Assembly (NCBI RefSeq): GCF_000007665.1
Contig: NC_006087.1
Span: 2,046,001-2,110,000 of the forward strand
Length of the DNA stretch: 64,000 bases
DNA from: Leifsonia xyli subsp. xyli str. CTCB07
GTDB lineage: Bacteria; Actinomycetota; Actinomycetes; Actinomycetales; Microbacteriaceae
Direction of reading: 5' to 3'
Under the pieces are notes generated by a model that ran no database searches, was not told where the DNA came from, and worked only from the letters and a program-made list of their open reading frames with translations. Positions 6,029-63,933 of the stretch are shown in pieces; within the stretch, counting starts at the first letter, position 1, and each line of letters opens with the position of its first letter. The position numbers and the translations under genes are program-made.

Positions 6029-7216
6029 ATGGACCGGTCCGAACTCGTCGAGCTGCTGAGCGCCGAAGGGCTGCGGCTGCTTGATGCCCTCCCACCCGCC
6101 CGGTCCGAGGAGAACGTGCTACGGACGGTCACCGCCCTCCGCAGAGCCGGCCACTCCCCCGGGCTCGTCGCGGCCGTGCTGACGCAGGGGAAGCTGCGCC
6201 GGAAGGCCGCGGCCAAATTCGGCGAGTTCGCAGACAGGATGCTGTTCACCGAAGCCGGGCTGGAGCAGGCGACCCGTCTGCCGGTCGCGGCTCAGCACGC
6301 CGGACGGTTCCGCGCGGCGGGCCTCGACACGGTGGCAGACCTCGGCTGCGGGATTGGCGGCGACGCTCTCGCGATCGCGGGCTTGGAGATCGAGGTCACG
6401 GCGGTCGAGGCCGACGAGGTGACCGCCGCCATCGCCGCTTTCAACTTAGCTCCCTTCCCGTCCGCAACCGTTCAGCACGGCCGCGCCGAAGACGCCGACC
6501 TGCGCGGCGCCGGCGCGGTCTACCTCGACCCCGCCCGGCGGACGGCCGGGCACACGCAGACCGAACGACTGACAGACCCCGGCGACTACACGCCGTCGCT
6601 GGGGTTCGCGTACGAACTGGCGACCGTGCGCCCGGTCGGGCTGAAACTCGGACCGGGGTTCGATCGCGACCGCATCCCCTCGGCGGCAGAGGCGCAGTGG
6701 GTGTCCGCCGACGGCCAGGCGGTCGAGCTGGGACTGTGGTTCGGCGCGCTGGCCCGCCCCGGCATCCGGCGAGCGGCGCTCGTGCTGCGCGGCGGTAAGA
6801 CACACGAACTGACCGCGGCGGCCGATAGCGAGGACGCCGAGACGGGCGACCTGAGCGAGTACCTCTACGAACCGGACGGCGCGGTCATCCGAGCCCGACT
6901 CATCGGGGACGTGGCGCGGAACCTGGGCGGCCGGATGCTCGCCGAGGGCATCGCCTACATCACCGGCGACGCGCGGCACGAGACCCCGTTCGCCGCCGGG
7001 TTCCGCATCCGGGAGCAGCTGCCCTACGCGGAACGCGACCTCAAACGCGCGCTCCGGAAGCGGGAGATCGGGACCCTCGAAATCAAGAAGCGCGGCGTGG
7101 ACGTGGACCCCGCCGCGCTCCGGAAGCGGCTCGGACTCGCGGGCGAACGCTCGGCGACCCTGGTCCTCACCAGGATCGCCGGGCGACACACAGCGCTGCT
7201 GGCCGAGCGGCTCTGA
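6029..7216 (+). CDS. class I SAM-dependent methyltransferase, THUMP-like type
   Basis: Protein of 395 residues. The SAM-binding motif I reads [16 protein letters not shown] at about residues 103-118, and the acidic loop [10 protein letters not shown] follows as expected. A YLDPARRT segment near residue 170 takes the place of the catalytic-loop motif. The first 90 residues are helical, and the C-terminal part ([20 protein letters not shown], then a KRGVDVDP stretch) matches the C-terminal THUMP-like region of an actinobacterial RNA methyltransferase-like family. Target is not known; an RNA base is likely from the family. It is transcribed away from groES and converges on the small membrane-protein gene, with stops only 18 bases apart. 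Confidence 0.82.
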
Positions 7217-7234
7217 ACACCCGCTGGCCGGGGC

Positions 7235-7693
7235 TCAGTACGTGCTGTAGCTGGCCGATATGCTCGCGAAGAAGAGGGCGAGGGTGATCCAGAAGATGAT
7301 CGCGATAAACACCGAAACGAAGCCCAGGATGATGCCCGTCAGCCAGAAGCCGCGAGCCTGGGGCTCCTTGCTGCGGCCGAGGAAACCGAGCACGATCCCG
7401 GCGACCCCGAACAGGGCTCCGACGCCCCAGGCGAACGTGAGCACGATGCCGCCGATGCCGCCGACGAGCGACAGGATGCTGAGGATCGGCGATTTGGCGG
7501 CGGGCGCGCCGTAGGGCTGCGCGTAGCCGGGGGCGGGCTGGCCGTACGGCTGCTGCGGGTAGCCCGGAGCCGGCGGCGAGACCGGCGCGCCGGCCGGGGG
7601 GACCGGCGGGGCCGGCGGAGCCGCGGCGGGCGGGACGGCCCCCTCGGTCACGCCGGGCTCGGTCGGTCCGGCGGGTGCGTTCGGGTCGGTCAT
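7235..7693 (-). CDS. small membrane protein with Pro/Gly/Tyr-rich N-terminus (DUF4190-like)
   Basis: 152 residues. The first 65 residues are a disordered cytosolic tail rich in Pro, Ala, Gly, Gln and Tyr (repeats such as GYPQQPYGQPAPGYAQPYG). Two hydrophobic segments follow, about residues 70-105 and 115-148, joined by GRSKEPQARGFW, which fits the DUF4190 family. Function unknown. ATG start with a purine-rich stretch before it (AAGGAGATGG). It stands alone, convergent with the methyltransferase gene. Confidence 0.82.
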   Translation of the reverse strand: MTDPNAPAGPTEPGVTEGAVPPAAAPPAPPVPPAGAPVSPPAPGYPQQPYGQPAPGYAQPYGAPAAKSPILSILSLVGGIGGIVLTFAWGVGALFGVAGIVLGFLGRSKEPQARGFWLTGIILGFVSVFIAIIFWITLALFFASISASYSTY

Positions 7694-7822
7694 GGTTGCC
7701 CATCTCCTTGCGTCTAACGTCTAGCTGAGAAAATGCTGTACACATCAATGCTCGCAGTGCAGCACCGGTGTGTCAACGGACCGCCCGGCGCGTCTGGGTC
7801 AACGCGCATCTGGGCCAGCGTC

Positions 7823-8905
7823 TCAAACCACGTGGACATCGGTGACCGGCAGCGTCGAGTCGGCCCCGAAACCAAGCCCGCTCGGCTCATGCCCGGCCAT
7901 GATGAGCTGCGCGCCGAGGGCGGCGATCATCGCGCCGTTGTCGGTGCAGAGCGAGAGCGCGGGGATGCGCAGCTCCACCCCCGCTGCCGCGGCCCGCTCC
8001 GCCGCGAGCTGCCGCACACGCGCGTTGGCCACGACGCCGCCGCCGAGCAGCAGGCGGGGGACGCCATGGTCGAGGCACGCGGCGATGGCCTTCGTGAGCA
8101 GCACATCCGCCACCGCCTCGCGGAAAGACGCGGCGACGTCGGCGACAGGGACCTCCTCTCCGGCGTCCTGCCGCTTCTCGACCCAGCGCGCGACGGCGGT
8201 CTTCACCCCCGAGAAGGAGAAGTCGTAGCGGTGCCGTTCGAGGTCCTGCGGCTTCGTGAGCCCGCGTGGAAACCGGATGGCGCGGGGATCGCCCGCGGCG
8301 GCGACGCGGTCGATCTGCGGTCCACCCGGGTAGGGCAGACCCAGGAGGCGGGCGACCTTGTCGAACGCCTCCCCCGCCGCGTCGTCGATCGTCTCGCCCA
8401 GCAGCTCGACATCGGAGACGAGGTCGCGCACGAGCAGCAGCGAGGTGTGCCCGCCGGAGACCAGCAACGCGACAGTCGGCAGCTCCACGGGATGCCCGGG
8501 CCCGCCGTCCGCGTCCAGCAGATCGGCGCCGACATGGCCGACGAGGTGGTTCACGGCGTACAGCGGTTTGCCGAGGGAGAGCGCGAGCGCCTTCGCAGCG
8601 CCGACGCCGACCATGAGCGCCCCGGAGAGACCCGGTCCGCTCGTCACGGCCACGGCGTCCACGGCGGCCAGGTCGATGCCAGCGTCGGCCACAGCGGTCC
8701 GGAGCGCCGGGGTCAGCGCTTCGAGGTGGGCGCGGGCCGCGACCTCGGGCACGACCCCGCCGTAGCGCGCGTGCTCCTCCATCGAGGAGGCGATCACATT
8801 GGCGAGCATCGTGGTGCCGCGGACGATGCCGATGCCGGTCTCGTCGCAGGACGTCTCGATGCCGAGGACGAGAGGGCCCTCCTCCGTCGATGCTGTGCGG
8901 TTCAT
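7823..8905 (-). CDS. tsaD: tRNA N6-threonylcarbamoyladenosine synthase subunit TsaD
   Basis: Transfers the threonylcarbamoyl group to A37 of ANN-decoding tRNAs, working with TsaB and TsaE. 360 residues, ASKHA fold. [16 protein letters not shown] is at the N-terminus, the [20 protein letters not shown] segment is near residue 45-64, and the metal-binding HxxxH (NHLVGHVGA) is at about residues 120-124. [19 protein letters not shown] and [11 protein letters not shown] are also typical. The start ATG at 8905 overlaps the rimI stop (ATGA); longer in-frame extensions are not conserved in type. Last gene of the glmS-to-tsaD unit. Confidence 0.96.
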
Positions 8906-49773: not shown

Positions 49774-50700
49774 TCAGCCTTCCTCAGCACTGCGGCCCGG
49801 GCGGCGTGCGGGGACCCGGGCGAGGGCGGCGAGCGTTCGCTGGACGCCGCGAACGGCCTTGCCCAGCAGCCTCTGACGAAGTGAGAAGAACCAGGCGACA
49901 AGGAAGGCGGCGGTGAGGACCAGGACGATGGTTCCCCCGGTGGGGATGTCCCACGACCAGGACAGGTACAGGCCGATGAACGTTCCGAGCCCGCCGATGA
50001 CAGGCGAGAGGGACATCATCACGCCGAGACGATCGGTGAGCATCCGCGCCGTCGCCGCCGGGGTGACCAGCAAGGCGAGGACGAGGATGTTGCCGATAGT
50101 CTGCACGCTGATGACAACCGCGAGGGTGACCAGCACGTAGAGCACCAGGTCGAGCAAGAAAACGGGAACACCGAGTGCGCGTGCGGACTCGCGATCCAGG
50201 CTGATGGTGACGAACTCTTTGTGCAGCAGGAACATCGCCCCCAGCACGGCGACGCCCGTGATGCTGGCAACGTACAGGTCCCGGTCGGGGATGCCGGTGA
50301 TCGAGCCGAACAGGAACTGCTCGAGAGACCCAGCGTATCCGGGAGTCTGGGAGATGACCACAACGCCGAGGGCGAAAGCGACGACGAAGAACACGCCGAT
50401 GATCGAGGATTCGTTGAGGCGGCGGTTGTGGGAGAAGACGGCGACCAGCACCGCCGTGGCGACGCCAGCGAACACCCCGCCGAGGACGAGGTCGCCGGAG
50501 AGGACGAACGCGATCGCCAGGCCCGGGAAGACAGCGTGAGAGACGGCGCCTCCGATGAAGGCCATACCGCGAAGCACGACATGGGCGCCGACGATGCCGC
50601 AGACGGTGGACGAGATGACCGCGACCGCGAGAGCCTTCGGGAGGAAGGCGAGACCGGGGTGGAACAGGTCGGTGAAGAAGTCGATCGGATTCATGTTCAC
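49774..50700 (-). CDS. ABC transporter permease, ZnuB-like, of the anchored-repeat system
   Basis: 308 residues with eight or nine membrane helices, ABC-3 metal permease family (zinc/manganese/iron). FLPKALAVAVISSTVCGIVG, HVVLRGMAFIGGAVSHAVFP, GVFFVVAFALGVVVISQTPG and the coupling segment NILVLALLVTPAATARMLTD, plus FIGLYLSWSWDIPTGGTIVL, are typical. The GTG overlaps the ATPase stop (GTGA). This is the only gene of the transporter that looks intact. Metal specificity is inferred from its partners, not shown by this protein. Confidence 0.88.
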   Translation of the reverse strand: MNMNPIDFFTDLFHPGLAFLPKALAVAVISSTVCGIVGAHVVLRGMAFIGGAVSHAVFPGLAIAFVLSGDLVLGGVFAGVATAVLVAVFSHNRRLNESSIIGVFFVVAFALGVVVISQTPGYAGSLEQFLFGSITGIPDRDLYVASITGVAVLGAMFLLHKEFVTISLDRESARALGVPVFLLDLVLYVLVTLAVVISVQTIGNILVLALLVTPAATARMLTDRLGVMMSLSPVIGGLGTFIGLYLSWSWDIPTGGTIVLVLTAAFLVAWFFSLRQRLLGKAVRGVQRTLAALARVPARRPGRSAEEG

Positions 50701-51460
50701 GCGACGTTCAGGATGCGCAGCAGCGGACTGCCGGGGTCGACGCCGAAGGCGGCCATCCAGGCCTCCGGGCGCGCGGTCAGCTCGGCCGGGCTGCCGGTGG
50801 CGATGACGGTGCGATTCAGGAGAGCGAGACGGTCGCAGCTGTAGAGGGCGGAGGCGAGGTCGTGGGTGGTCATCAGCACGGCCCGGTTCTCACGGGCCAG
50901 CTGGGTGAACAGGTCGCCGAGGATCTCCTGGGTGGGCATATCGAGGCCGGTGAACGGCTCGTCGAACAGTAGGAGGGAAGGGCGCAGGGCGAGGGCGCGG
51001 GCCACGAGGACACGTTGGCGCTGCCCTCCGGAGAGCTGCCCGACGGGGCGGTTGGCGAGGCCGGTCATGCGAACCCGGTCGAGGGCGTCGGCGACCGCCT
51101 CCCACTCGTTCGCTCCGGGGCGGCGGAACAGGCCCAGCCGGCCGGTGAGGCCGGTCATGACAGTGCCCGCGACCGAGAGCGGATACTCCCAGGAGAACTC
51201 GTGCGCTGGGGCACATAGCCGATCTCGGCACTACCCGGTCTGGCCGGGCGGCCCCCGACCAGGGCGCGGCCGGCGACGGGGCGCAGCAGCCCGAGGAGGG
51301 TGCGCAGCAAAGTGGTCTTGCCCGCGCCATTGGGGCCGATGAGGCCGATGATCTCGCCGCGGTGCGCAGTGAGATTCGCGTCCTCGAGCACGCGACGCCC
51401 GCCGAGTTCGACGGAAACGTGCTCGACGGAAAGGGCGAGGGTTTCCTGTGCTGCGGTCAT
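50697..51460 (-). pseudogene. ABC transporter ATPase of the anchored-repeat system, one frameshift
   Basis: Walker [21 protein letters not shown] is in the first frame, up to EIGYVPQR. One base is then missing near 51214: the next frame carries on as [20 protein letters not shown], the expected Q-loop follow-on. That frame holds the signature LSGGQRQRVLVARALAL, Walker B LLLFDEPFTGLD and switch histidine MTTHDLASA, to a stop overlapping the permease GTG. All nucleotide-binding motifs exist, but in two frames. ATG overlaps the stop of the repeat protein gene upstream (ATGA). Related to ZnuC-type ATPases. Confidence 0.87.
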
Positions 51461-52463
51461 GCGCCGCTGCCCTCGTCCGGCGCCAGCGGCGAAGAAGGGC
51501 GGTCGGCGAAGAAACGCTTCTTCGCCTGGCCGCCGCACACGATCGCGGTCACGAATCCGACGAGCAGGGCCACCGCGACGACCGCGATCGCGACGATCAG
51601 GATCGGCACGAGCGGTCCCTGTCCGCCCGCGACGGAGGGACGGGCGCTCCTTCCCGGGGCCGCACCCCTCCAGGTCGCCTTCGCAGCATCGCCCGCGAGG
51701 GTGCCGGAGCCGACAGCGAAGCGCAACAGCTGGGTGTCGGAGACCGCCGATCCGTCGATGAGGGTCGCGGAGGCGGTCATCCGGATCAGGTAGACACCCG
51801 GCTTGGTGAACACCCAGTTGGCGTGAGTGTGCGTTTTGGTGTCGACGAAGATGTCCTGAGGACCGCTCTTCCGGGAGTCCCACAGCACCTGCGGGGCGCC
51901 GAAGTCACCGGACTGCAGGTAGACGGTGAGGATGCCGGGGCCTTGCACACCGTCCACAGAGAAGGTCGCGCCGCGGTCGATCTTCTGCATCACGGTCGGG
52001 TCCTGAGTGTTCCAGCCGGTCCAGACCACATCGGGGTTCTGGGTCTGCGGCACGACCCAGACAGCGGCACCGGGGGCCGCGCCGACGAAGGAGTAGGCGC
52101 GGCCGCCGGGGACGGTCAGCTTCGCCGCGTCCACGACCTGCAGCACCGTCTCGGCCGGGTAAAGCCACACGCTCTGCGCGTCCTTGTTCGCGCGGGCCGC
52201 GTCGTCGTGGATGAGGAACTTCCAGGTGGATCCGTCGAACCGGGGGCCCATATCGACGTGCCCGGTGGTGATGACGTGGTCGCCGTGGACGATGGGCTGG
52301 TTCACGCCGATCGTCTGGTTGAGCACCGGATCTCCCGGTGACGGGGTCTGGTCGGCCCAGCTGCCACGGGGGCGAGCAGGGCGGCGATAGACAGGAGAGT
52401 GGCGGCGGCACAGGCGGGAAGCCGGCGCGGGGGGCGGGTGGAGTGCATGGGGAGGTCTCTCAT
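51457..52463 (-). pseudogene. choice-of-anchor M repeat protein with membrane anchor, one frameshift
   Basis: A Sec signal (RRLPACAAATLLSIAALLAP, then VAA) is in one frame; from the cleavage site on, near 52370, the reading is one base off (WADQTPSPGDPVLNQTIGVN). About 290 codons then stay open. They hold one repeat module: GHVDMGPRF at the front, VWVVPQTQNPDVVWTGWNTQ in the middle and [20 protein letters not shown] with [16 protein letters not shown] at the end. A helix ([20 protein letters not shown]) and a basic tail AKKRFF anchor it. ATG at 52448 is an alternative start. Upstream is the lipoprotein gene, 38 bases away. Confidence 0.82.
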
Positions 52464-52501
52464 CGTTCGGTGTCGAAGGTGGGGCGGTCGCGGACCGGAA
52501 G

Positions 52502-54112
52502 TCAAGGACCGAGACATCTCAGGAGCGTGGCGGCATTGAAGCGCATCATGTCGAGGTAGGTCGGAGCGCCGCCGTCGAGGGTGTCGCCGTAGATCGGGCA
52601 CACCGGGATGCGCTGCTCGGCGGCCACCTGGGTCAGCTCCGAGGAGCGGGCTCTCAGGTTCGGCTCAAGGAATACGGCCCGCACACGCAGGTTCCGGATC
52701 GTCTCGGTGAGCCGGCGCCGATCGGCGAGCGATGGCTCGGTGGCGGGGTTGGGGGTGACGAATCCGGCGACGGGGACACCGTAGGCCTTGGCGAGGTAGG
52801 CGAATCCGTCGTGGGTCGTGACCAGGTACCGGTTCGCTTTCGGTATACGGGCGATCGTGTCTCGCACATACCTGTCGGTCTGATCGAGTTCGGTCAGATA
52901 CCGTTCCGCGTTCGCCCGGTAGCCGGCGGCCCCGCCGGGGTCTTTGGCGATGAGGGTGTCGCGGATGAGCTTGGCGTAGGCCTCGACGTTGCGGACGTTC
53001 TGCCAGAGGTGCGGGTCGATCTCGCCGTGGACGTGCTTTCCGAGCACTGCCTGCGCGAGCTGGTAGACCTGTCCACCGGGTTGGCCGAGGAAGCGGTACT
53101 GCGGGTCACCGGGGATCTCCACAATGCTCTTGCTGGGGACGTCGATGACGACCCGGGAGGCATCGTATCGCTTCTGGGTGCGCTCGCCTCCGGTCGGTTC
53201 GTAGAGCACGTCCAGGCCGCCGCCGTCCAGATCGACGGTGAGATCCGCGTGCCCCTAGTCGAGGACCACCGGGTCGGCGACGCGCGCGTCGTCGGGGTTG
53301 ACACCGACAGCGAAGGTGTAAGTCGCTTCGCCGAGATCGACCGGCCTGGAGGTGTCGTCCGTTCGCAGCCGGCCGCGCAGGGTGAGGTGGTAGACACCGG
53401 GTTTGGTGAAGGCCCACGACAGACGCGTGTGCGCATCGGCCGGCAGTGTGGCGGTGTCGTCCTTGTACCCGTCTGCGGCGTCGAAGCCGTTCGAGGAGTC
53501 GAAGTACACATCGGTGTCGCCGAAAGTTCCGGTCAGATACGCGTAGACATTCCCCGGCCCGTCCGCGTGGGTGGCCTCCAGCAGCACATCAGACGCGCGC
53601 GTGGCCCCATACCGCCGGCCAGCGCCCTCAGCGCGCATTCCCAGCCAGACGGTGTCCAGACGCACGTTCTCCACGAGCGGGATGAGCTCGGCAGAGTATT
53701 TGACGGACTCCTCGGCCAGAGACACATTCGCTGCCCGAGGGCTGAGGTTGGCGTCGAGGGCTTTGACGATGGTGTGCTCTTCCAGCAGGGCGTAGTTGGA
53801 GAACGCGACATCGGCGTAGACGACATTGCGGACGTCCCTCAGGGTCGGCTCGTACGTGTGCGGATCGGCCCCGTCGGGGACGATCGATGTGACATCCACC
53901 CGATCGCCGCCGACGTTCTTCACCAGATCGGCCAGAAGCCCGGTCGTCGTCACCACCTGGAGCCGGTGCGTTCCGGGTTCGAGCAGTGGCTCGGCGGCGC
54001 ACCCGGACAACAGTAGTCCGGCGAGTCCGGCGCCGATCAGGAGGCGGGAGCGGCAGCGGCGCTGAAGGGGATCGCGCAGCGAGGCTGCGCGCCCCCCGGT
54101 CAGCGGCGTCAT
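52502..54112 (-). pseudogene. ZnuA-like lipoprotein with an inserted repeat module, in-frame amber stop
   Basis: 537 codons. Lipobox LLLSGC near residue 38, then the solute-binding N-lobe VVTTTGLLADLVKNVGGDRV with DGADPHTYEPTLRDVR. At about residues 115-265 a repeat module is inserted (ENVRLDTVWLGMRAEG, TRLSWAFTKPGVYHLTLRGR). After it the C-lobe continues: HVHGEIDPHLWQNVRNVEAY, YLVTTHDGFAYLAKAYGVPV, IYGDTLDGG. All four ZnuA-type ligands (H, H, H, D) can be matched. A TAG at 53255-53257, reading D-stop-G-H-A-D, interrupts the frame without shifting it. Extracytoplasmic metal-binding subunit of the transporter. A GTG at 54166 is another possible start. Confidence 0.87.
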
Positions 54113-54159
54113 AAGCCGGCCGGCGCCCGGCCGGCGACGCTCTCCCCCCTGCGCCTGCG

Positions 54160-57100
54160 TCACCACAGCGCCCCCACGCCGACGCCGGCGAGCAGGAGCA
54201 GCGCTCCGAGGATGCTCAGCAGCAGCGGAATCGGATCGCCCTGGGTCAGCGCCGCGATCGGGTCGAGAAGGCCCGCGTGGCGGGTCCCCCGGGCAGCGCC
54301 CTCGCCTGGGCTCGCGCAGCGTCGGCCTGCGCCTGCTCGGCGGCCTGTTTCGCGTCGTGCAGGCTCTGATTCCCGGTCGCCAGCGTGTTCGAGAGGGCAC
54401 CGCACCCGGCGCCCTTGGACAGGGCCGTGTCCGGGTTCGCATCGCCGACCGCGACGGTCAGCACCTCGCTGTCAGAGGAACGCTGCCCCTGGGCGAGCGT
54501 GGCGGTCTGGGTGAAGTGCAGGTGGTAGACGCCTTGAGCGCTGAACGCCCAGTTCGCATGCACATGCACGCCGAGCGGGAGAGTGTGGCTGCCCGCGCCT
54601 TCGAACACCATCTCCTGCAAGTTTCCGAACGAACCGACCGTGTAGACCTTCACGCTGCCGGGGCCATCGATCCGGGTCAGCGACCAGGTCACGGGGCTGG
54701 AGGCGTTGCCGGCGTTGAGCAGCTCCGTGGACCAGCCCAGCCAGATGAGGTCATAGTTCTGCGTCTGCGGCACCTGCCACACCGTCGCGCCGGATGGTCC
54801 GATCTGCGGGAACCCGGCGGGGAGGCTGACCCGCGACGCTGGTTTCAGCCACAGCACGGTGCTGTCCGGTTCCCGGTACAGGCGGGCACCGGTGGAGTCG
54901 TCGCCGATCAGGGATTCGAGTTTCCCGCCGATGATCTGCGTGTTCCAGTCCAGATGCCCGGCCGAGATCACCGACACACCCGTGCTTGCGCACTGCGCGA
55001 CAGCCGGTTTCGCCCGTGCCGCTCTGACCTCCGCTGGTGACAGCGTCGAGGGCGGCGAGACAGCCCTTGCCGCCGGGAACGGCGGTCACCGGGTCCACAT
55101 CGCCGACGACGACCGTCACGATCTCCGAATCACTCGACTCCCTCCCACCAGTCAACGTAGCGGACTGGGTGAAGTGCAGCCGGTAGACACCCGCCTGGGA
55201 GAAGGCCCAGTTCGCGTGTGCGTGTACGCCGGTGCGGATGCTGTACGAGCCGGCGCCGTCGAACACCATCGATTGAATGCCGCCGAACTGACCGTCCAGG
55301 AACACCTTCACCGTCCCCGGCCCGTCCACGTCGGTGAGCTTCCACGTCACGGGCGACAGGACCTTGGCGCCGCTCAGGGTCTCGGTGGACCAGCCCAGCC
55401 AGATCAGCTCTGGGTTCTGCGTCTGCGGCACCATGAAAACACTCGATCCTGCGGGCCCGATCTGCCCGTATCCGGCGGGGAGCGTGACCGTACTCGAGGG
55501 TTTGAGCCACAGGACGGTCTTCGACGGCTCCCGGAAAACCTCCGTGCCCGATGAGTTGTAGCCGATGTACGACTCGATCTTCCCGTTCACCACCTGGGTC
55601 GAATAGTCCAGGTGCCCGGAGGAGACGATCGTCGTGTCACCGGCCGAACAGCCGCCCGATCCGTCCAGCACGGGCGGGTCTCCGGGGGCGCCCCCGTCCC
55701 CGGAACCGCTGTCGGGCGCTTTCACCACGGCGAGGGAATCCCAGCCGATCAGCGACCCGTCCCGGGCCTTCACGACGACTTTGTGTACCCCCAGAGGGGC
55801 ATCGGCGGGAAGACGGACCTGCGCGGCGACCGCATCGTTGATCTGGGCCCAGCCCAGCCAGACCGGCTGACTGTGCAGCCACGCCGACACCCACTGACCT
55901 GTGCGGGCCTTGCCGATCTGGACGGTCGCCTGCTGCCCCGGGGAGAAACCCGATTCATCCCCGAGGACCTGCACACCGCCGGCACTCGCATCGGTCAGCT
56001 GTGACTCGGGCACCGGCGCGATGTCCTGCGTGCCGGGCTTGCCCGCACCGGTGAAGCAGCGGGCAGGGTCGATTTTCTTCACCTCGACCTTGCCCACCGC
56101 GACGGCCAGCGTGAAGGTGTCCGAGGCTGTGGTTCCGTCCGCGAGAGCGGTGGAACGGGTGAAGGCAAGGCAGTAAGCGCCTTCCGCGGAGAAGTCCCAG
56201 GCGCCGTGGACATGCGCGTTCTTGGCGATCTCGAACGAGTCGGCCGCGGTGATCCCGTCGCGGGTGTTGAACAGCACATCGACGCTGCCCAGAGTCCGGC
56301 CGCCCTTGTAGAGGGCAAACTCACCAGGCCCTTGTATCTTGTCGAGCGTCCATCTCACCCCGCTCTGGGTGGCGTCGACGGGAATGGACTCCGTGGACCA
56401 ACCGGGCCACAGCAGGCCGAGCTCCGTCTGCTGCGTCTCGGTCACCTGCCAGAGGTGGCTGCCGGCACGGCCGAGGAAAGCGTACTGGGCGTTCTCCGGG
56501 ATAGCGGTCTCGGACGCCGGAAGCAGTTGCAGGACGGTTCGGGCGGGATCGCGCCAGACCGTTTCCCCCGCGGTGGCAGCGGAGGTGGTGTCCTTCACCT
56601 TCGTGCCGAACACGCCGCCGTTCAGAGTGGAGGCGATGTCGATGTGGCCGCTGTTGAGGATCGTCGCGCCCGAGTCGGTCGTGGACTGGTTCGGCACCCG
56701 CCACGCGTCATCGCCCGCTGCCTTGCCCGGTCGGCTTCTGGCCGCGGGAGCAGGAGGTGATGCCCGTATCGTCGGCGACCCCGGCGGCGAAGGTGAGAAC
56801 CTTCCGCACCGAGACGGGTGTGCGGCTGCCGGCCTTGGTGGCGGTCCACGTCACCGGCACACAGTAGACGCCGGGCTGGCTGAAGGACCACTGGGACACC
56901 TGATTGTCGGTTCGAGCGGGCAGCATGGTGGTCAGCTTCCCGCTCGCGGGGCTGAGCACATCCGGTGTGCCCGCCAGGCCGGAGGTCAGCGACACACTGC
57001 CGGGGTCGCTGCCTCTCCTATCGAGAGGGTCAGCGGACCGTCGAGAGCGTCAGGGGCGATCCGGTCGGTGTTCAGCCCGGTGTTCATGTCCTGCCCCGTG

Positions 57101-59674
57101 CGGTAGCCGCCCATAGTGGACACGTTGGCGGTTTAGACGACATCCTCCGCGGCGACGTATTCGACCGGCGCCGTCGCGGACGCTTACACCCGGGTGACCG
57201 TGTCGATGCCGCCCCCCGGTCAGATAAGTGGTGAGGTCGGCGCCACCAGCGCGGGCCACCCTCGCCGTGGCCGTCGGTGTCACCGCGAGCGGCTGAAGGC
57301 TCGCCTGGGGCGGGGTGGCGTCGCGATCGCAGGGGACGACGTAGCCTGCGGCGGCTGGGTCGCCGATCCACACCGTGACCATGCCGCTGTCCGACGCCCA
57401 AGAGCCGGAGGTGAGCTGCGTCTTCGCGGTGACGTTCAGGCAATAGCGCCCCGGGGCCGTGAACGCCCAGTTCATATGCTGGTGCGCCCCGATCTGCGAC
57501 GTGCGCGTCATCGGCAGCCGGGAGGAGTCGAACCACACCCCGGAGGGTCGCGACTTGACGAATCCGTCGTCGCTCGCGGTGTTGTCGAAGATCACAACGC
57601 GCGCGTCGGCGGTCGGGGTGAGGACACCGTTCAGAGTGAAGTCGATGTTCGCGCTCGGCGCGATGTCGGAGACCTTCCAGCCCTCTGTGCTCAGCCCCGG
57701 CCACAGATGGGCGCCCTCCGCCCCCCTTGTTCGAAGTACCAGTACTTCGTTCCAGCGGGTCCGATCAGACGGGGGTCCAGCGCCTGGTTAGGCTCTCCAA
57801 CGGCCGCCGGTCCGTAGGCGCCGGTGAGGACAACGTCCTTCGTGTCGTAGAACGCTGCCGGTTTGACGCCGAACGTGATGCCGTCACCCGCATGATTGAG
57901 CACCGCGCGCATGTCAAGGTGACCCGCCCCGAGCACCGTCGGATTGCCGGCCGGGACGCCCCCGAGTCGTGGCCGTCATCGCCGCCTCCGGACAGCGGGA
58001 CCTGCGCGCAGGGCGTGACCATCGCCGGATCGGTTTTGTCGCCGACAACAAGAGTGTAGGTGGCTTGCGCGGACCGTGTCGCCGATGGCTTGTAGCTTTT
58101 GATCACGGTCTTCACGCTCACGCAGTACTGGCCTGGCTGAGTGAAGGACCAGCCCATATTCCACGCACTGGCGCGGGTGGTGACGTTGTTCTCCATCACG
58201 GTCTGCGGCGCACCGCCCGCGGTCAGCGCCGACGAGTCCCAGGTGGACGCGACCGGCTGAGTCCAGGCGCCGGAGCCCGGCGGGTCCTCGACATAGTCGC
58301 CGGTCACCGAGGACGCCGAGAACCGTCCGCCGTCCGGCCCGGTGACCGAGGTGAGGGTGAAACTCGGGGTTGTGTCATTGGAGATCACCGCTTTCTCGGA
58401 AACGGCGGAGGTGTCCCCGCCGGTCACGCCGAAGAGCAGCCGCCCGGCTTTTCCTTGCGCATAAGCGCCCGGGTCCTCGGTCGCCTGCGGCGTCGACCAG
58501 GAACCCGTCGCGGGGTCGCGCTCTCGATCCGTGAGGTGGATGATCGTGTCCTCTGCCGCGGACCACGGCGCCGGTGCGTCCCCATACGACCATCCGGTTA
58601 CGTTTCGCACCCCCATGCGGAAGGAGCCGAATCCGGTCGCGGCCGCGATGACATCCACGTACTGCGGACCGAGTCTCAGATCCCCGGCGGAGAGGACCGT
58701 GCGGTCTCCATGCACAGTCACCGTGACAGGGTCAGACGAAGCGGTGGTGTACGCCCCGAGGTCGCTCGGAACGAACTGCGCGGTGTAGCTGTGGGAACCA
58801 GCCGTCAGAGCGGCGACGGTGTGGCTGGCCACCCCTGTGGACGAGTCGACCGGAATCCGGCCGAGCAGCTTCTCGGCCTCGGTGAACTCCACGAAGCCAG
58901 CGGCGCCGACGGGCGTGACGCTCGCGGTGAGAGTGAGGGAATCGCCGGCCTTCGCCGAGGGGGACGAGGAGGCGAGCACGACGGCAGCGTCCCGCTTCGC
59001 CGCGGGTACGCTGCCGGGCGCTGAGGATTTCGCCGTGTCCAGGGCCTGCGTCCGAGGGCTCGTGGGTGACCCCGGGGCCGAGGCGGACGGCGCGGGCGTC
59101 GAAGGGGCCGCTGTCGAGGGGACCGGCGTCGAAGGGACCGGCGTCGAGACGGCCTGTGCGGGGGCCGGTGTGAGAGCAGAGACCTCGAATCGGTAGGTGA
59201 CCGGCTTGGCCGTCGCGCTCTCGCTCTGCGTCCCGTCAGCGTTTGAGAAGCGGGCTTCGGCCGCCACGCTGACCGCGTACTCGCCGGGCTCGGTGAAAGC
59301 CCACACAAGCGTGGAAGGCGTCCTGGTGTTCACGGCGACGCTGCGGTTTTGCCCGTGGGCGGTTCCCCAGACGACACCACCGGGAAGAGTCGCCGACACG
59401 GTCCCCTTACCGGGTACGTCAACGGCCTCGAGGGTGAGGGTCTCCTGTTCCAGGGTCGCTGCCGGTGGCGAGACCGTGCTGGCGACGGTCGTCGCTGCGG
59501 TGGCGGCGCCGTCGGCGTCGCCACCAGAAGAGGCAGCGTCGCCCCGGCTGCGGGAACCATCGACGGGGGCGTCGCGAGAGCGGGGGTCATGGTCATTCCG
59601 GACAAAGCGATGACGAGCGGGACGGCGATGGCAAGTCCACGACGGAGACGGGGCGCGGGGTGAGTCACGGGCAA
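54160..59674 (-). pseudogene. giant multi-module anchored-repeat surface protein, heavily broken
   Basis: About 1,840 codons spread over several frames. Signal RGLAIAVPLVIALSGMTMTP at the start; the frame then shifts near 59560. Next: a first repeat (LVWAFTEPGEYAVSVAAEAR), a Pro/Ser/Ala linker of TPVPS repeats, an Ig-like domain and a His-poor module. Further modules begin GHLDM (57.9 kb), GHIDI (56.7), GHLDY (55.6) and GHLDW (54.9), each ending in a WxF-xPGxY motif. The end is PLLLSILGALLLLAGVGVGA, an anchor helix. Frame breaks are near 59560, 57965, 57720, 57020, 56720, 54960 and 54250, with in-frame stops near 57185 and 57133. Surface partner of the metal transporter encoded next. Confidence 0.8.
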
Positions 59675-59749
59675 GCTCTCTGGATACTGGTGAGAACGGA
59701 CAAAGGGTGCGGGGCGGGCGTCCGAGCGCCCGCCCCGCGAAGGAGACCG

Positions 59750-60572
59750 CTACGGGGTTGCGACGAAGCTGTAGTAGACCGGGTCGGACGCCGCGATCGA
59801 GGAGGGCCCCGCCACCGAGGCCACAACCTTGAATACGTACGTGCCGGGGGTGCTGAAGTCCCACTCCGGGTGCCGGTAGAACGCCTCATCGATTCCCGTG
59901 GTCAGTGCGAAATCGAACACATAGGGGTTCGAGACAGCGCCCGTGCCGGAGGCGGTCACACCCGGGATGCCGGACCAGTCGATCGACGCCGTCGAGCCGG
60001 CCGGCTGGCTGACCAGGGTGATCGTGGTGCGGATCTTCGCCGACGGCGACACCGTGGCCAGTCCGCCGCTCGGGCTGTAGAACACGCTGCGGGCCGCATT
60101 CTGCGCGGTCATGCCGTGCTGCTTCAGGTACCGCGGACGGGTCGCTGGGGACGTTACCGAGGCCGGCGAACCCGGACCACACCACGCTCCGCGCGTTCGC
60201 GGTGAGTTGGTCCTTCGAGATCTGCCAGATCGGAGTGCCGGAGCCGGGCGTGTACTTCTTCACGGTGAAGTCGTACGCCGGCGTGCCGAGCGAAGAGGTG
60301 GCGTCGACTTCCGAGCCGAGATAGTAGCCATCCTCCGGAGCGACCGTGGAGTCTTCCCGGTTGGTGCCGAGGATCAGCTTGTTGGAGTTCGGCGAGAGCG
60401 ACACATGGACGCTGTCCACATGCTGCTGATCGAACGTCCCGGCTGTGCCGGCGTTCGCGATCCCCGCCCCGAGCCCGAGACTCAGCGCGAGGACCCCGAC
60501 GCTCGCGGTCAGGGAGCCGAGGACCGTGTACCTGCGCGGGACGGCGGTGCGCTCAATGGTGTTCGTGTTCAT
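59750..60572 (-). pseudogene. small anchored-repeat exported protein, one frameshift
   Basis: Signal peptide TVLGSLTASVGVLALSLGLG to ANA, then FDQQHVDSVHVSLSPNSNKL and YDFTVKKYTPGSGTPIWQIS in the first frame up to VPSDPSA. After a one-base shift near 60128 the second frame continues YLKQHGMTAQNAARSVFYSP to FYRHPEWDFSTPGTYVFKVV and the stop. Joined length about 273 residues: one repeat module and no anchor. ATG with a GAAAGAAG ribosome site. It lies 75 bases before the giant surface gene, the first gene after the Zur-type box region. Confidence 0.8.
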
Positions 60573-61103: not shown

Positions 61104-61118
61104 TGATAATAATTATCA
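61104..61118. promoter_or_regulatory. Zur-type operator, perfect palindrome
   Basis: TGATAATAATTATCA: the arms TGATAAT and ATTATCA are exact inverted copies around one base. This is the actinobacterial Zur box form (TGATAATNATTATCA). It lies at the head of the leftward run of surface and transporter genes and stands out as AT-rich in GC-rich DNA. Confidence 0.85.
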
Positions 61119-61264: not shown

Positions 61265-61387
61265 TCAGCCCTGAAGCCCCTCGAACCGGGGGTTGAGCTT
61301 ATTGATGACATAGACCCTGCCCCGACGACGCACAACCTGCGCGCCAGGCTGGTTCTTCAGCGATTTGATCGACGCCCTGACTTTCAT
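61265..61387 (-). CDS. rpmJ2: 50S ribosomal protein L36, zinc-independent paralogue
   Basis: 40 residues: [20 protein letters not shown] then [20 protein letters not shown]. It is L36 by length and by the [11 protein letters not shown] core, but all four zinc ligands of the other copy are gone (C-minus form). Such copies replace zinc-bound L36 when zinc is short, freeing the metal, and are usually repressed by Zur. ATG with GGAGGTG ribosome site; a Zur-type box lies 16 bases upstream. Small and intact. Confidence 0.93.
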
Positions 61388-61403: not shown

Positions 61404-61418
61404 TGAGAAAGATTATCA
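61404..61418. promoter_or_regulatory. Zur-type operator between rpmJ2 and cobW
   Basis: On the minus strand TGATAATCTTTCTCA: the first arm is exact, the second keeps five of seven bases. It sits in the 76-base divergent gap, 16 bases from rpmJ2 and 45 from cobW, and could control both. Confidence 0.75.
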
Positions 61419-61463
61419 TTAACGGAATCGGGGCAGGTGTCCCGGCTCGGTAGGAGGATCCCA

Positions 61464-62460
61464 GTGCAGCGAGTAGACATCGTCGCGGTGGTCGGGGTGT
61501 ACGCGCCGGAGCGGCTCCGGTACGCCAAACGACTGGCGGCGATCACCGGGCGCGAGTTCGTCCCCGCGACCCAGCTGGCGATCTCGGCGGACCCGGTGGA
61601 CGAAGCCGCGACGATCTCCCCGGGGATCAAGACGCCCGCCGGCGCCGTTTTCGAGTTCCCACACAGCGCGCCGGTCATCAAGCTCATCGGGGCGCTCACC
61701 GACCCGGACACAGAGACGCAGCTGACCGGAATCGTGTGCGTGGCCGATGCGGCACACCTGCTGGAGGACCTGCAATAGAGCGGGTCGGCTCTGCCATTCG
61801 GCACCCCCTCGCCTGGCAGCATCCCTCGTTCGCACAGCGCATCCCGCACGCGATACTAACCGTCACGCAACTGGAGTACGCCTCGACAATCGTGGTGGTG
61901 AACTCGGCGGCCCTCTCGAGGGCGGAACTGTCGACCGTGATCGCGCTCATCAGCCACCTCAGCCCGCAGGCGCGCCTGCGGGTGCATCAGGACGCTATCG
62001 AGCCATGGGTCCCGGGCGAGCCGTTCACCGCAGGACAGGAACGGCCCGGCTGGATCGGGCTGCTCAACGACGACTACGAGCCACACCTGACCGACCCGCG
62101 CGTCACCGCCTTCCGGTACGAGAACGTGCGGCCACTGCATCCGGTGCGGCTCCGCCGCCTGCTGAACCGACTCGAGACAGACGCCTTCGGCACCGTCATC
62201 CGCTCCGCCGGGTTCTGCCGCTTCGCCTCCCGGCCCCACGTCGTAGCGCACTGGGACCAGGTGGGCCGGACGATCAGCTTCGACCCGCTCAGCCACGACG
62301 ACACCCTGGAGGACGACCAAGAGTTCCTCGCCCTCGGTCAGGAACTCGCGATCATCGGCCTCGACACCGGCGGCCTGACCGCTGCGCTCGACGACACCGC
62401 GCTCACCGATGGCGAACTCACTGCGGGCCCCACCCTCTGGACAAAACGGCGGATTCCAGT
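61464..62460 (+). pseudogene. CobW-like (COG0523-type) protein, frameshifted and cut by an IS
   Basis: GTG start with a TAGGAGGA ribosome site. The first frame gives IVAVVGVYAPERLRYAKRLA to VCVADAAHLLEDLQ and a stop at 61778; one base off, it continues VGSAIRHPLAWQHPSFAQRI, the CobW-type linker and the C-terminal domain FRYENVRPLHPVRLRRLLNR, FGTVIRSAGFCRFASRPHVV. The 3' end is replaced by the IS30 element after TKRR. No Walker A (GxxGxGKT) is seen at the N-terminus, nor a CxCC zinc motif. Such proteins are thought to hand metals to targets under zinc shortage. Divergent from rpmJ2 with a shared Zur-type box. Confidence 0.82.
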
Positions 62461-62473
62461 GGTTGTTGCAACA
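62461..62473. repeat. IS30 terminal inverted repeat, left
   Basis: GGTTGTTGCAACA, exact complement of the copy at the other end. It contains the self-complementary core TTGCAA. Confidence 0.85.
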
Positions 62474-62479
62474 CGACGA

Positions 62480-63933
62480 TTAGCTGGCGAGTAGTTTAGC
62501 GAGGCGTTCGGCTGGGGTTTCCCAGCCGAGCGTTTTGCGTGGGCGGGTGTTGAGCTCGTGGGCGACGTTCGTCAGGTCGGTTGCGGTGAATCGGGCGAGG
62601 TCTGTTCCCTTTCCCTTGGGGAAGTATTGGCGAAGGAGTCCGTTGGTGTTCTCGTTGCTGCCGCGTTGCCAGGGACTCGCGGGGTCGCAGAAGTAGACCG
62701 GGATGTCGGTGGCTATCGTGAACGACTTGTGAGCTGCCATTTCCGAGCCCTGGTCCCAGGTGATCGAGCGACGGAGTTCGCGTGGGAGTGTCTTGACGGC
62801 GCTGATCAGTCCGTCCCGGACGGATTCTGCGGTGCGATCGATGGGGAGATGGATCAGCATCACGAACCGGGTGGAGCGTTCCACGAGGGTGCCGATGGCG
62901 CTGTTGCGGTGTCCGCCGATGATGAGGTCGCCTTCCCAATGTCCGGGAACGGCGCGGTCCTCGATTTCGGCGGGACGGTCGGAGATCATTACCATCGGAT
63001 CCGCGAAACGATGTCTGCGAGCGGCGCCAGAACGATGCGGTTTCCGCTTGGCCCGGCCGGTCCGCAGCACCATCGTGAGCTCGCGGCGGAGTTGTCCACG
63101 GCCCTGCACGTAGAAGGCTTGATAGATCGTCTCGTGCGCCACGCGCATCTCCGCATCGCCGGGGAACTCGCGGATCAGCGACCGGCTGATCTGCTCCGGC
63201 GACCAACGTAGCGTCAGCTTCCGTTGAACGTAACTGCGCAGCTGCGGATTGCGGACCAGCCTCGTGGCTTTCGGTCGCGGTCGGCGGCTGGCCGCTTTCC
63301 GATGCGCCACGTATGGATGGTAGCCGCCCTCTCCAGGAAGCTGATTCCGGCGAATCTCTCGACTGATCGTCGACACCGAGCGACCAAGCTTGGCCGCGAC
63401 CCGACACAACGAAAGGCCGGCCCTGGTCAGGTCCCGGATCAGCTCACGCTCCTGCAGGGAGAGGAATCGTGGGTGGAGTGCGGCTTCGAGCGAACGCATC
63501 GACGCCCGCTGAACAGGATCAACAACGACAGGCACCCTGTCTTTGTAATCGACCACGCGACCATCTGGATAAATGCGTCGCCCGTTCGACTGTCCCAGAG
63601 GTATCCCGTGTTCGGGCTGATTCCGACTCGTCCCACCGCTTCGCGGCGCGAGAGCCCGCTGCTCCGCAGCTCCAGGTACTCGTCCTTGCATGGGTGCGCG
63701 CTCATGCCGCCGCCGGTGTAGCCGTGACTAGCCAGGCCCGCCTTGCGAACCCATTGCGCGCACGTCGCGGGGTTGAACCCTAGCTCCCTCGCCGCGATCG
63801 TCGTACTCCTGGACTCCTTGAAAATGACGAAGAAGGCTTCACGCTCCGCCTGGGTGTACTTCCTCTTCCCCGCACTGCGCCTTAAACGGGACACGGTCCT
63901 TGCAACTCCTAGAAACTCCAGATGTTGCAACAA
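62480..63933 (-). pseudogene. IS30-family transposase, read in two frames
   Basis: The N-terminal part (RKYTQAEREAFFVIFKESRS, ARELGFNPATCAQWVRKAGL, SGLSRREAVGRVGISPNTGY) is a helix-turn-helix in one frame. Past LWD the coding continues one base off at about 63600 as SNGRRIYPDGRVVDYKDRVP and stays open for the catalytic part to the stop at 62480. The second helix-turn-helix is RAGLSLCRVAAKLGRSVSTI. DDE residues lie in VPGHWEGDLIIG, TWDQGSEMAAH and WQRGSNENTNGLLRQYFPKG. A frameshift mutation or a programmed shift could explain the split; an internal start giving only the catalytic frame would be 403 residues. Confidence 0.8.

Follow-up and report, generated by a model that had tools for sequence, protein, structure and literature searches.

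The repeat modules encoded in a broken gene island of Leifsonia xyli subsp. xyli str. CTCB07 are likely to be beta-sandwich zinc-binding sites in a wall-anchored system for zinc uptake under Zur control (TIGR03770-03773) whose relatives include ZnuE, ZnuF, ZnuG and CmrA of C. diphtheriae, and the insert in the island's binding lipoprotein is a circularly permuted copy of the wall module, an arrangement that looks new. The zinc idea itself, put forward in the initial annotation of this DNA, is substantially in print (PMC12445094) and hence right but not new; its remark that no metal role had been shown for these histidines was overtaken by that 2025 paper. What we add is the permuted acceptor module, the family-wide pattern of the histidines, the class of His-less modules and the Zur-like boxes on stand-alone module genes. 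Throughout, the window is the whole 64,000-nucleotide stretch analysed (contig NC_006087.1, positions 2,046,001 to 2,110,000).

The island lies on the minus strand of a 2.58 Mb single-contig genome, and by profile match its modules are assigned to NCBIfam choice_anch_M/TIGR03769 (NF038134) within an anchored-repeat ABC zinc island of the TIGR03770-03773 type (Table 1). NF038134 scored 261, 194.3, 129.8, 61.7 and 57.1 bits in window ORFs (cut-off 55), with other pieces below the cut-off, and the TIGR03773 surface protein scored 677.5 bits (cut-off 190.3). TIGR03771 was the best family for both ATPase pieces (222 and 72.7 bits), each of which falls under the cut-off of 268.8 because the gene is split. 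The TIGR03772 binding protein, to which Pfam adds ZnuA, is also in two pieces, one of 329.4 bits over profile positions 1-223 and one of 383.2 bits over 237-486 (cut-off 350.45).

Table 1. Features of the zinc island and its candidate control sites, in window coordinates
Feature	Position	Strand	Basis or remark
TIGR03770 anchored-repeat ABC permease	49774..50700	-	476.9 bits, cut-off 296.8; only island gene seen intact
TIGR03771 ABC ATPase, split over two frames	50697..51460	-	profile 73-222 and 1-58 in separate ORFs
Four-residue module of ZnuE-like protein (ORF 51457-52326), GHVD ... W ... HTHANW	51709..52278	-	NF038134, 194.3 bits
C-terminal lobe of TIGR03772 substrate-binding protein (ZnuA/AztC type)	52505..53047	-	NCBIfam and Pfam
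N-half (GHAD) of permuted module in lipoprotein	53048..53254	-	profile 1-73
In-frame TAG between halves of permuted module	53255..53257	-	1 TAG
C-half of permuted module in lipoprotein, HTR where relatives read HTH	53303..53686	-	profile 77-184
Four-residue wall module, GHLD ... HVHANW	54441..54971	-	NCBIfam and iterated profile
Four-residue wall module, GHLD ... HAHANW	55099..55632	-	NCBIfam and iterated profile
Four-residue wall module, GHID ... HVHGAW	56092..56667	-	NCBIfam and iterated profile
His-less module in pieces, DQ at the HxH place	56780..57087	-	iterated profile
Four-residue wall module over two frames, GHLD ... HQHMNW	57359..57939	-	NCBIfam and iterated profile
His-less module, GDLR, no HxH (58.6 kb in the initial annotation)	58038..58703	-	iterated profile
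His-less module, C-part only	59181..59471	-	NCBIfam and iterated profile
Partial module split between two frames; keeps HxD and W, with YxH in place of HxH (second His kept)	59762..60437	-	NCBIfam and iterated profile
Zur-like box TGATAATAATTATCA upstream of island	61104..61118		one mismatch to TGAWAAYSRTTWTCA; sequence match
Second Zur-like box, upstream of type B L36 gene	61404..61418		two mismatches to TGAWAAYSRTTWTCA; sequence match

Most island genes are broken in this genome; the wall gene or genes are spread over several frames, and the ZnuE-like ORF has its likely signal peptide in a different frame (ORF 52302-52601) from its module. ORF-length statistics did not set the island apart, coverage being 0.69 against 0.69, 0.93 and 0.75 for the rest of the window. 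Only one of 24 congeners (G022) has a module, and its copy is broken too, at other places, which favours decay over sequencing error; we regard the window copy as probably decaying and non-working. The sister copy (L039 11518-14330) splits its binding protein between two ORFs that overlap, and the second of these continues into a module. Adjoining the broken island is a transposase ORF with HTH_38 and rve domains (62480-63691, minus strand), which we take to be of the IS30 type. Plus-strand open pieces of 113 and 250 aa at 61437-62499 gave no Pfam match at 0.001, and are either a disrupted gene or not a gene at all.

Read with an iterated profile on the minus strand, five window modules have the form GHxD...HxHxxW, with the H-x-D, the W of WxGW and the H-x-H all kept and with HxD and HxH bracketing approximately 150 residues. 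The paired motifs described in the initial annotation, a GHxD opening and a His-rich closing patch, are thus real in these five modules, and its module without histidines at 58.6 kb was found as described; its inventory of modules was right as to the motifs and short by two more His-less modules and one partial module. None of the four residues varies across 21 full modules, picked for their strong profile matches in the window genome and four relatives, which share just 20-50% identity with the window's best module. This invariance, together with the three-His pattern described below, rules out chance motifs. The modules closest to those of the window (76-78% identity) come from records that are labelled as Bifidobacterium sp. 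(MAG) and as Actinacidiphila (L062 and L063), a likeness that hints at transfer or mislabelled contigs.

For the family at large we used 80 loci, the best of 573 confirmed stretches, found by a pattern on the HxH end, together with six regions of relatives. The iterated profile read 622 domains in this set, 396 of them full (an earlier reading gave 588 and 354), and setting aside the 180 full modules that match the retrieval pattern left 216. Three His were present in 170 of these modules, two in none, one in 8 and none in 38. The modules form 92 clusters at 50% identity, which divide 62/0/7/23 for three, two, one and no His where independence of the columns would give about 58 mixed clusters, a split that alignment errors in degenerate modules can exaggerate. 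Among domains with only the C-part, 78/104 read HH. In a further sample, made up of 20 regions chosen by profile rather than by His and of two additional ones, 40 full modules were three-His and 3 were His-less; away from loci with a binding protein three His were present in 35 of 38, the other 3 all coming from a single contig piece (L171).

The expected co-variation of the two His sites was thus seen insofar as the three His are kept or lost together, while secure independent events in the tree are few. Joint His losses gave 7 changes on the tree, with only 2 independent pairs on well supported branches, and we rejected the stronger claim of repeated independent co-loss because a sign test on two pairs cannot reach 0.05. 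The W of WxGW was rejected as an obligate partner of the site: it is kept in 0/46 His-poor modules, but is absent from 12/40 profile-sampled three-His modules, and on this reading of the sequences it appears to be a frequent companion of the site only.

The module family was present in 53 of the 297 genomes sampled from the order of the window genome, and a plasmid collection gave no module match. In a class of 66 genomes around one distant member (G263) the only match was that genome itself. One relative has a 2,500-residue wall protein ORF (L090 2-7501, plus strand) containing eight full modules, five of them three-His. A locus from a distant class (L142) keeps GHVD/HTHQIW beside WxL-type and sortase genes, with no zinc transporter found within 16 kb, which shows that the motif also occurs away from transporter loci; at 6221-8359 (plus strand) its module stands behind a repetitive N-terminal part that is propeller-like by eye and gave no family match, and the WxL-type and sortase genes follow.

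The two kinds of module are ordered within proteins. In 31 ORFs that have both kinds the last, anchor-near module is three-His in 29 (shuffle mean 18.2) and the first is His-poor in 25, and every His-poor module precedes every three-His module in 22 (shuffle mean 9.6), although the test takes no account of relatedness between ORFs, some ten of the 31 being two-module proteins from Micromonosporaceae-type records, and its p-values are therefore too small. The window order (His-less at 59.3 and 58.4 kb, four-residue at 57.6, His-less at 56.9, and four-residue at 56.4, 55.4 and 54.7 kb) agrees with His-less modules being mostly N-terminal, away from the C-terminal anchor. As to the suggestion that some modules are structural spacers, a His-less class exists, but its position far from the anchor is unlike that of a stalk, since anchor-near spacers would give the opposite order.

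The initial annotation had called the island Zur-boxed, and two candidate boxes, at 61104-61118 and 61404-61418, bear this out at the level of sequence match. The actinobacterial Zur-type pattern TGAWAAYSRTTWTCA has eight window matches at three or fewer mismatches, against 1.07 expected, and two stricter palindromes gave 3 against 0.05 and 4 against 0.19 expected matches, all but one of which fall at the two boxes. Behind its own box lies a gene for ribosomal protein L36 of type B, the zinc-free kind (61265-61387, minus strand), described as a usual Zur target (PMC2823685). Among relatives, a Zur-like box with at most two mismatches was found at 49 of 80 loci, against 2, 4 and 1 in three Markov controls. 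Where no binding protein was present in the fetched stretch, 14 of 20 loci, several of which are close relatives of one another, had a Zur-like box no more than 150 bases from the 5' end of a module ORF, compared with 0.51 for random placement.

An AlphaFold2 model of the module at 51703-52290 (pLDDT 94.1, pTM 0.90, 76 sequences) places H11 and D13 in a predicted strand at 10-19, W90 in one at 89-94, and H154 and H156 in one at 154-156. We also performed mean-field coupling on 373 three-His modules (16,110 pairs), in which the His columns are invariant; where both columns of a pair do not vary the scores lie on a flat floor, which we did not count as signal. Columns 9 (the x of HxD) and 80 (the residue before W) ranked 8 with a score of 1.70, and columns 84 (the far end of the WxGW strand) and 145 (the x of HxH) ranked 10 with 1.63, compared with maxima of 1.24-1.68 in six column-shuffled sets. 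Pair 9-80 was in the top 100 in 10/16 half-samples and pair 84-145 in 16/16, and all four columns fall in strands of the confident module model. When all sequences are used the His columns couple strongly, reflecting the two module classes. These couplings give moderate independent support to an arrangement in which HxD and HxH would adjoin the same WxGW strand and form one site across it. By sequence, no relative of the module turned up among solved structures (best E 0.087), and Foldseek found no fold match for it at E 0.001 or better.

The lipoprotein insert had been described in the initial annotation as a spacer lacking most of the histidines. Instead it consists of module halves in reverse order, with GHAD and the first His of HxH kept in the window and all four residues kept in relatives. 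The curated profile, run on the binding proteins of the window genome and of five others (G026, G030, G037, G251 and G283), matched from approximately 42-81 to 168-184 first and from 1-2 to 73-75 second. We scored an ORF as permuted when a C-half preceded an N-half, the two together made one module and the ORF had no other halves. Among the 87 ORFs carrying the C-terminal lobe of the binding protein 75 were scored as C-half then N-half, typically with 10-16 residues between, and HxH and HxD (HH and HD) were kept in 75/75. The 12 not scored include L124, which has the same order with a missed start cut, L097 (C-half only), the broken congener copy L039, L114 and L115 (each with just part of the N-half), five second binding proteins that lack an insert, and L087 and L089, which start at a contig end and in which no module was found; the locus set contains near duplicates (L101/L102, L111/L112 and L114/L115). 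H195, H197, H255 and D257 are invariant in 30 of the permuted binding proteins. The idea of the insert as a spacer is ruled out by this retention of the four residues.

In a model of the lipoprotein of one relative (L074; mean pLDDT 75.3, pTM 0.55), of which we used the insert only, residues 122-320 contain 16 predicted strands and a single helix, arranged as a permuted module would have them when compared by hand. The binding-protein lobes match solved substrate-binding proteins to about residue 80 and resume at about 326-333; for AztC (structure 6xpn) it starts again at chain position 132, and since the AztC D-loop is given as residues 117-133 (PMC7463823) the insert lies within the interval containing that loop. 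The permuted insert thus appears, by alignment, to sit where the zinc-transfer loop of AztC and ZnuA is found. The His-rich loop of ZnuA, at 124-143, is described as enigmatic in function and dispensable for high-affinity binding (PMC8900738). Our literature search of open-access papers found no permutation of the module in print. In C. diphtheriae ZnuA both motifs are reported in reverse order with 45 residues between them (PMC12445094); a permuted module accounts for this order, for which the accessible part of that paper gives no permutation as the reason.

The experimental case for zinc comes from C. diphtheriae, in which ZnuE, ZnuF, ZnuG, CmrA and CmrA2 have, like the window modules, HxD and HxH bracketing about 150 residues, in one to three copies, with the two motifs lying near each other in models from the AlphaFold Database (Peng et al. 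2025, PMC12445094). These modules gave zinc-dependent thermal shifts, higher zinc ratios destabilised the proteins, His changes abolished ZnuE and ZnuG function in growth tests, and deletion of znuA had a modest effect only (PMC12445094). Peng et al. could not show that the HxD/HxH His bind the zinc. By analogy with these relatives, the four-residue site of the wall modules very probably binds zinc. The initial annotation's claim that the surface modules bind zinc accordingly draws support from the published relatives, the Zur-like boxes and the joint behaviour of the three His, and is weakened by the His-to-Ala (3xA) proteins, which still shifted with zinc (PMC12445094). The module sites and their natural His-less versions offer controls for the question of whether HxD/HxH ligates zinc.

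It could be that the wall modules form a sink or store that buffers or reserves surface zinc with no hand-over to the transporter, a reading that we consider rather unlikely. It would fit the C. diphtheriae findings that znuF and znuG are not required for growth in low zinc, that their removal restored growth of a znuAECB mutant and that their over-expression limits growth, but ZnuE, which has the same module, is needed in low zinc along with its His (PMC12445094), a binding protein stands beside the modules in 82 of the 86 loci examined, and the binding protein itself carries the module. There is a smaller chance, which we put as low, that HxD/HxH is a structural site, or one for another metal or ligand, that holds the fold together: fold-invariant residues can be structural, and the ZnuE His-to-Ala forms were less stable while still shifting with zinc (PMC12445094). 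Against it, His-poor clusters keep the fold residues G164 (30/30), Y166 (27/30) and F160 (27/30), so that the fold does not need the site, and the Zur-like boxes tie the family to zinc. It is very improbable that the arrays are adhesins or wall scaffolds of binding or spacing modules, in an island zinc-named by neighbourhood alone, despite the sortase-type anchors, Ig-like domains (Pfam Big_3_5 in the window), the relative with WxL-type and sortase genes and weak fold matches (E > 0.001) that include surface adhesins, since Zur-like boxes lie directly at the start of stand-alone module genes and zinc regulation of such genes is published (PMC12445094).

For the zinc uptake reading, we propose that each module would hold one zinc through the His and Asp of its N-terminal H-x-D and the two His of the H-x-H approximately 140 residues later, which would flank the WxGW strand on either side. 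Wall-anchored arrays would catch zinc outside the membrane, and the membrane-near ZnuE-like module and the lipoprotein's permuted module would bring it to the transporter's own site. What we infer in this explanation is that the residues ligate zinc directly, that each module holds one zinc and that zinc is handed from module to module; the passing of zinc from modules to lipoprotein, as the initial annotation had it, is plausible. A more specific version, which we offer tentatively as somewhat short of an even chance, is a homotypic relay in which the binding protein has swapped the flexible His-rich loop or D-loop of ZnuA and AztC for a folded, permuted wall module, so that zinc would move from membrane-near wall modules to ZnuE to lipoprotein module to transport site, with the outward, His-less modules otherwise employed. 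If this is true, the same domain, in two topologies, provides both the donor and the acceptor site. The permuted module also makes the anchored-repeat naming a mechanism question, namely whether a folded zinc module replaces the disordered His loop of ZnuA.

The C. diphtheriae system resembles that of the window further in its zinc/Zur regulation and adjoining ABC zinc transporter genes (PMC12445094), and differs in that the window genes are broken. NCBIfam TIGR03769/NF038134 and TIGR03770-03773 are strong profile matches whose family names state no metal; in the window the ATPase, binding protein and wall genes are in pieces. Streptococcal polyhistidine triad (Pht) proteins bind zinc at the surface and are believed to supply a zinc binding protein (PMC12445094), with the motif HxxHxH, whereas here HxD and HxH are far apart in sequence. 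ZepA of Anabaena, a Zur-controlled secreted zinc-uptake protein, has the motif H-X2-9-H-F/Y-H and a PEP-CTERM unlike the window modules, and is likened to them by its description only (PMC10957091). AztC, AztB and AztA of the AztABCD system are closely related to the lipoprotein, permease and ATPase, and the AztC D-loop is reported to be essential for transfer from the chaperone AztD (PMC7463823). AztD is a beta-propeller, whereas the window module is predicted to be a 196-residue, mostly strand domain and not a propeller-sized repeat; in the window island a folded module takes up the interval of the loop, and copies of it are the presumed donors. By analogy, the module may work like AztD, although it is not a member of that family.
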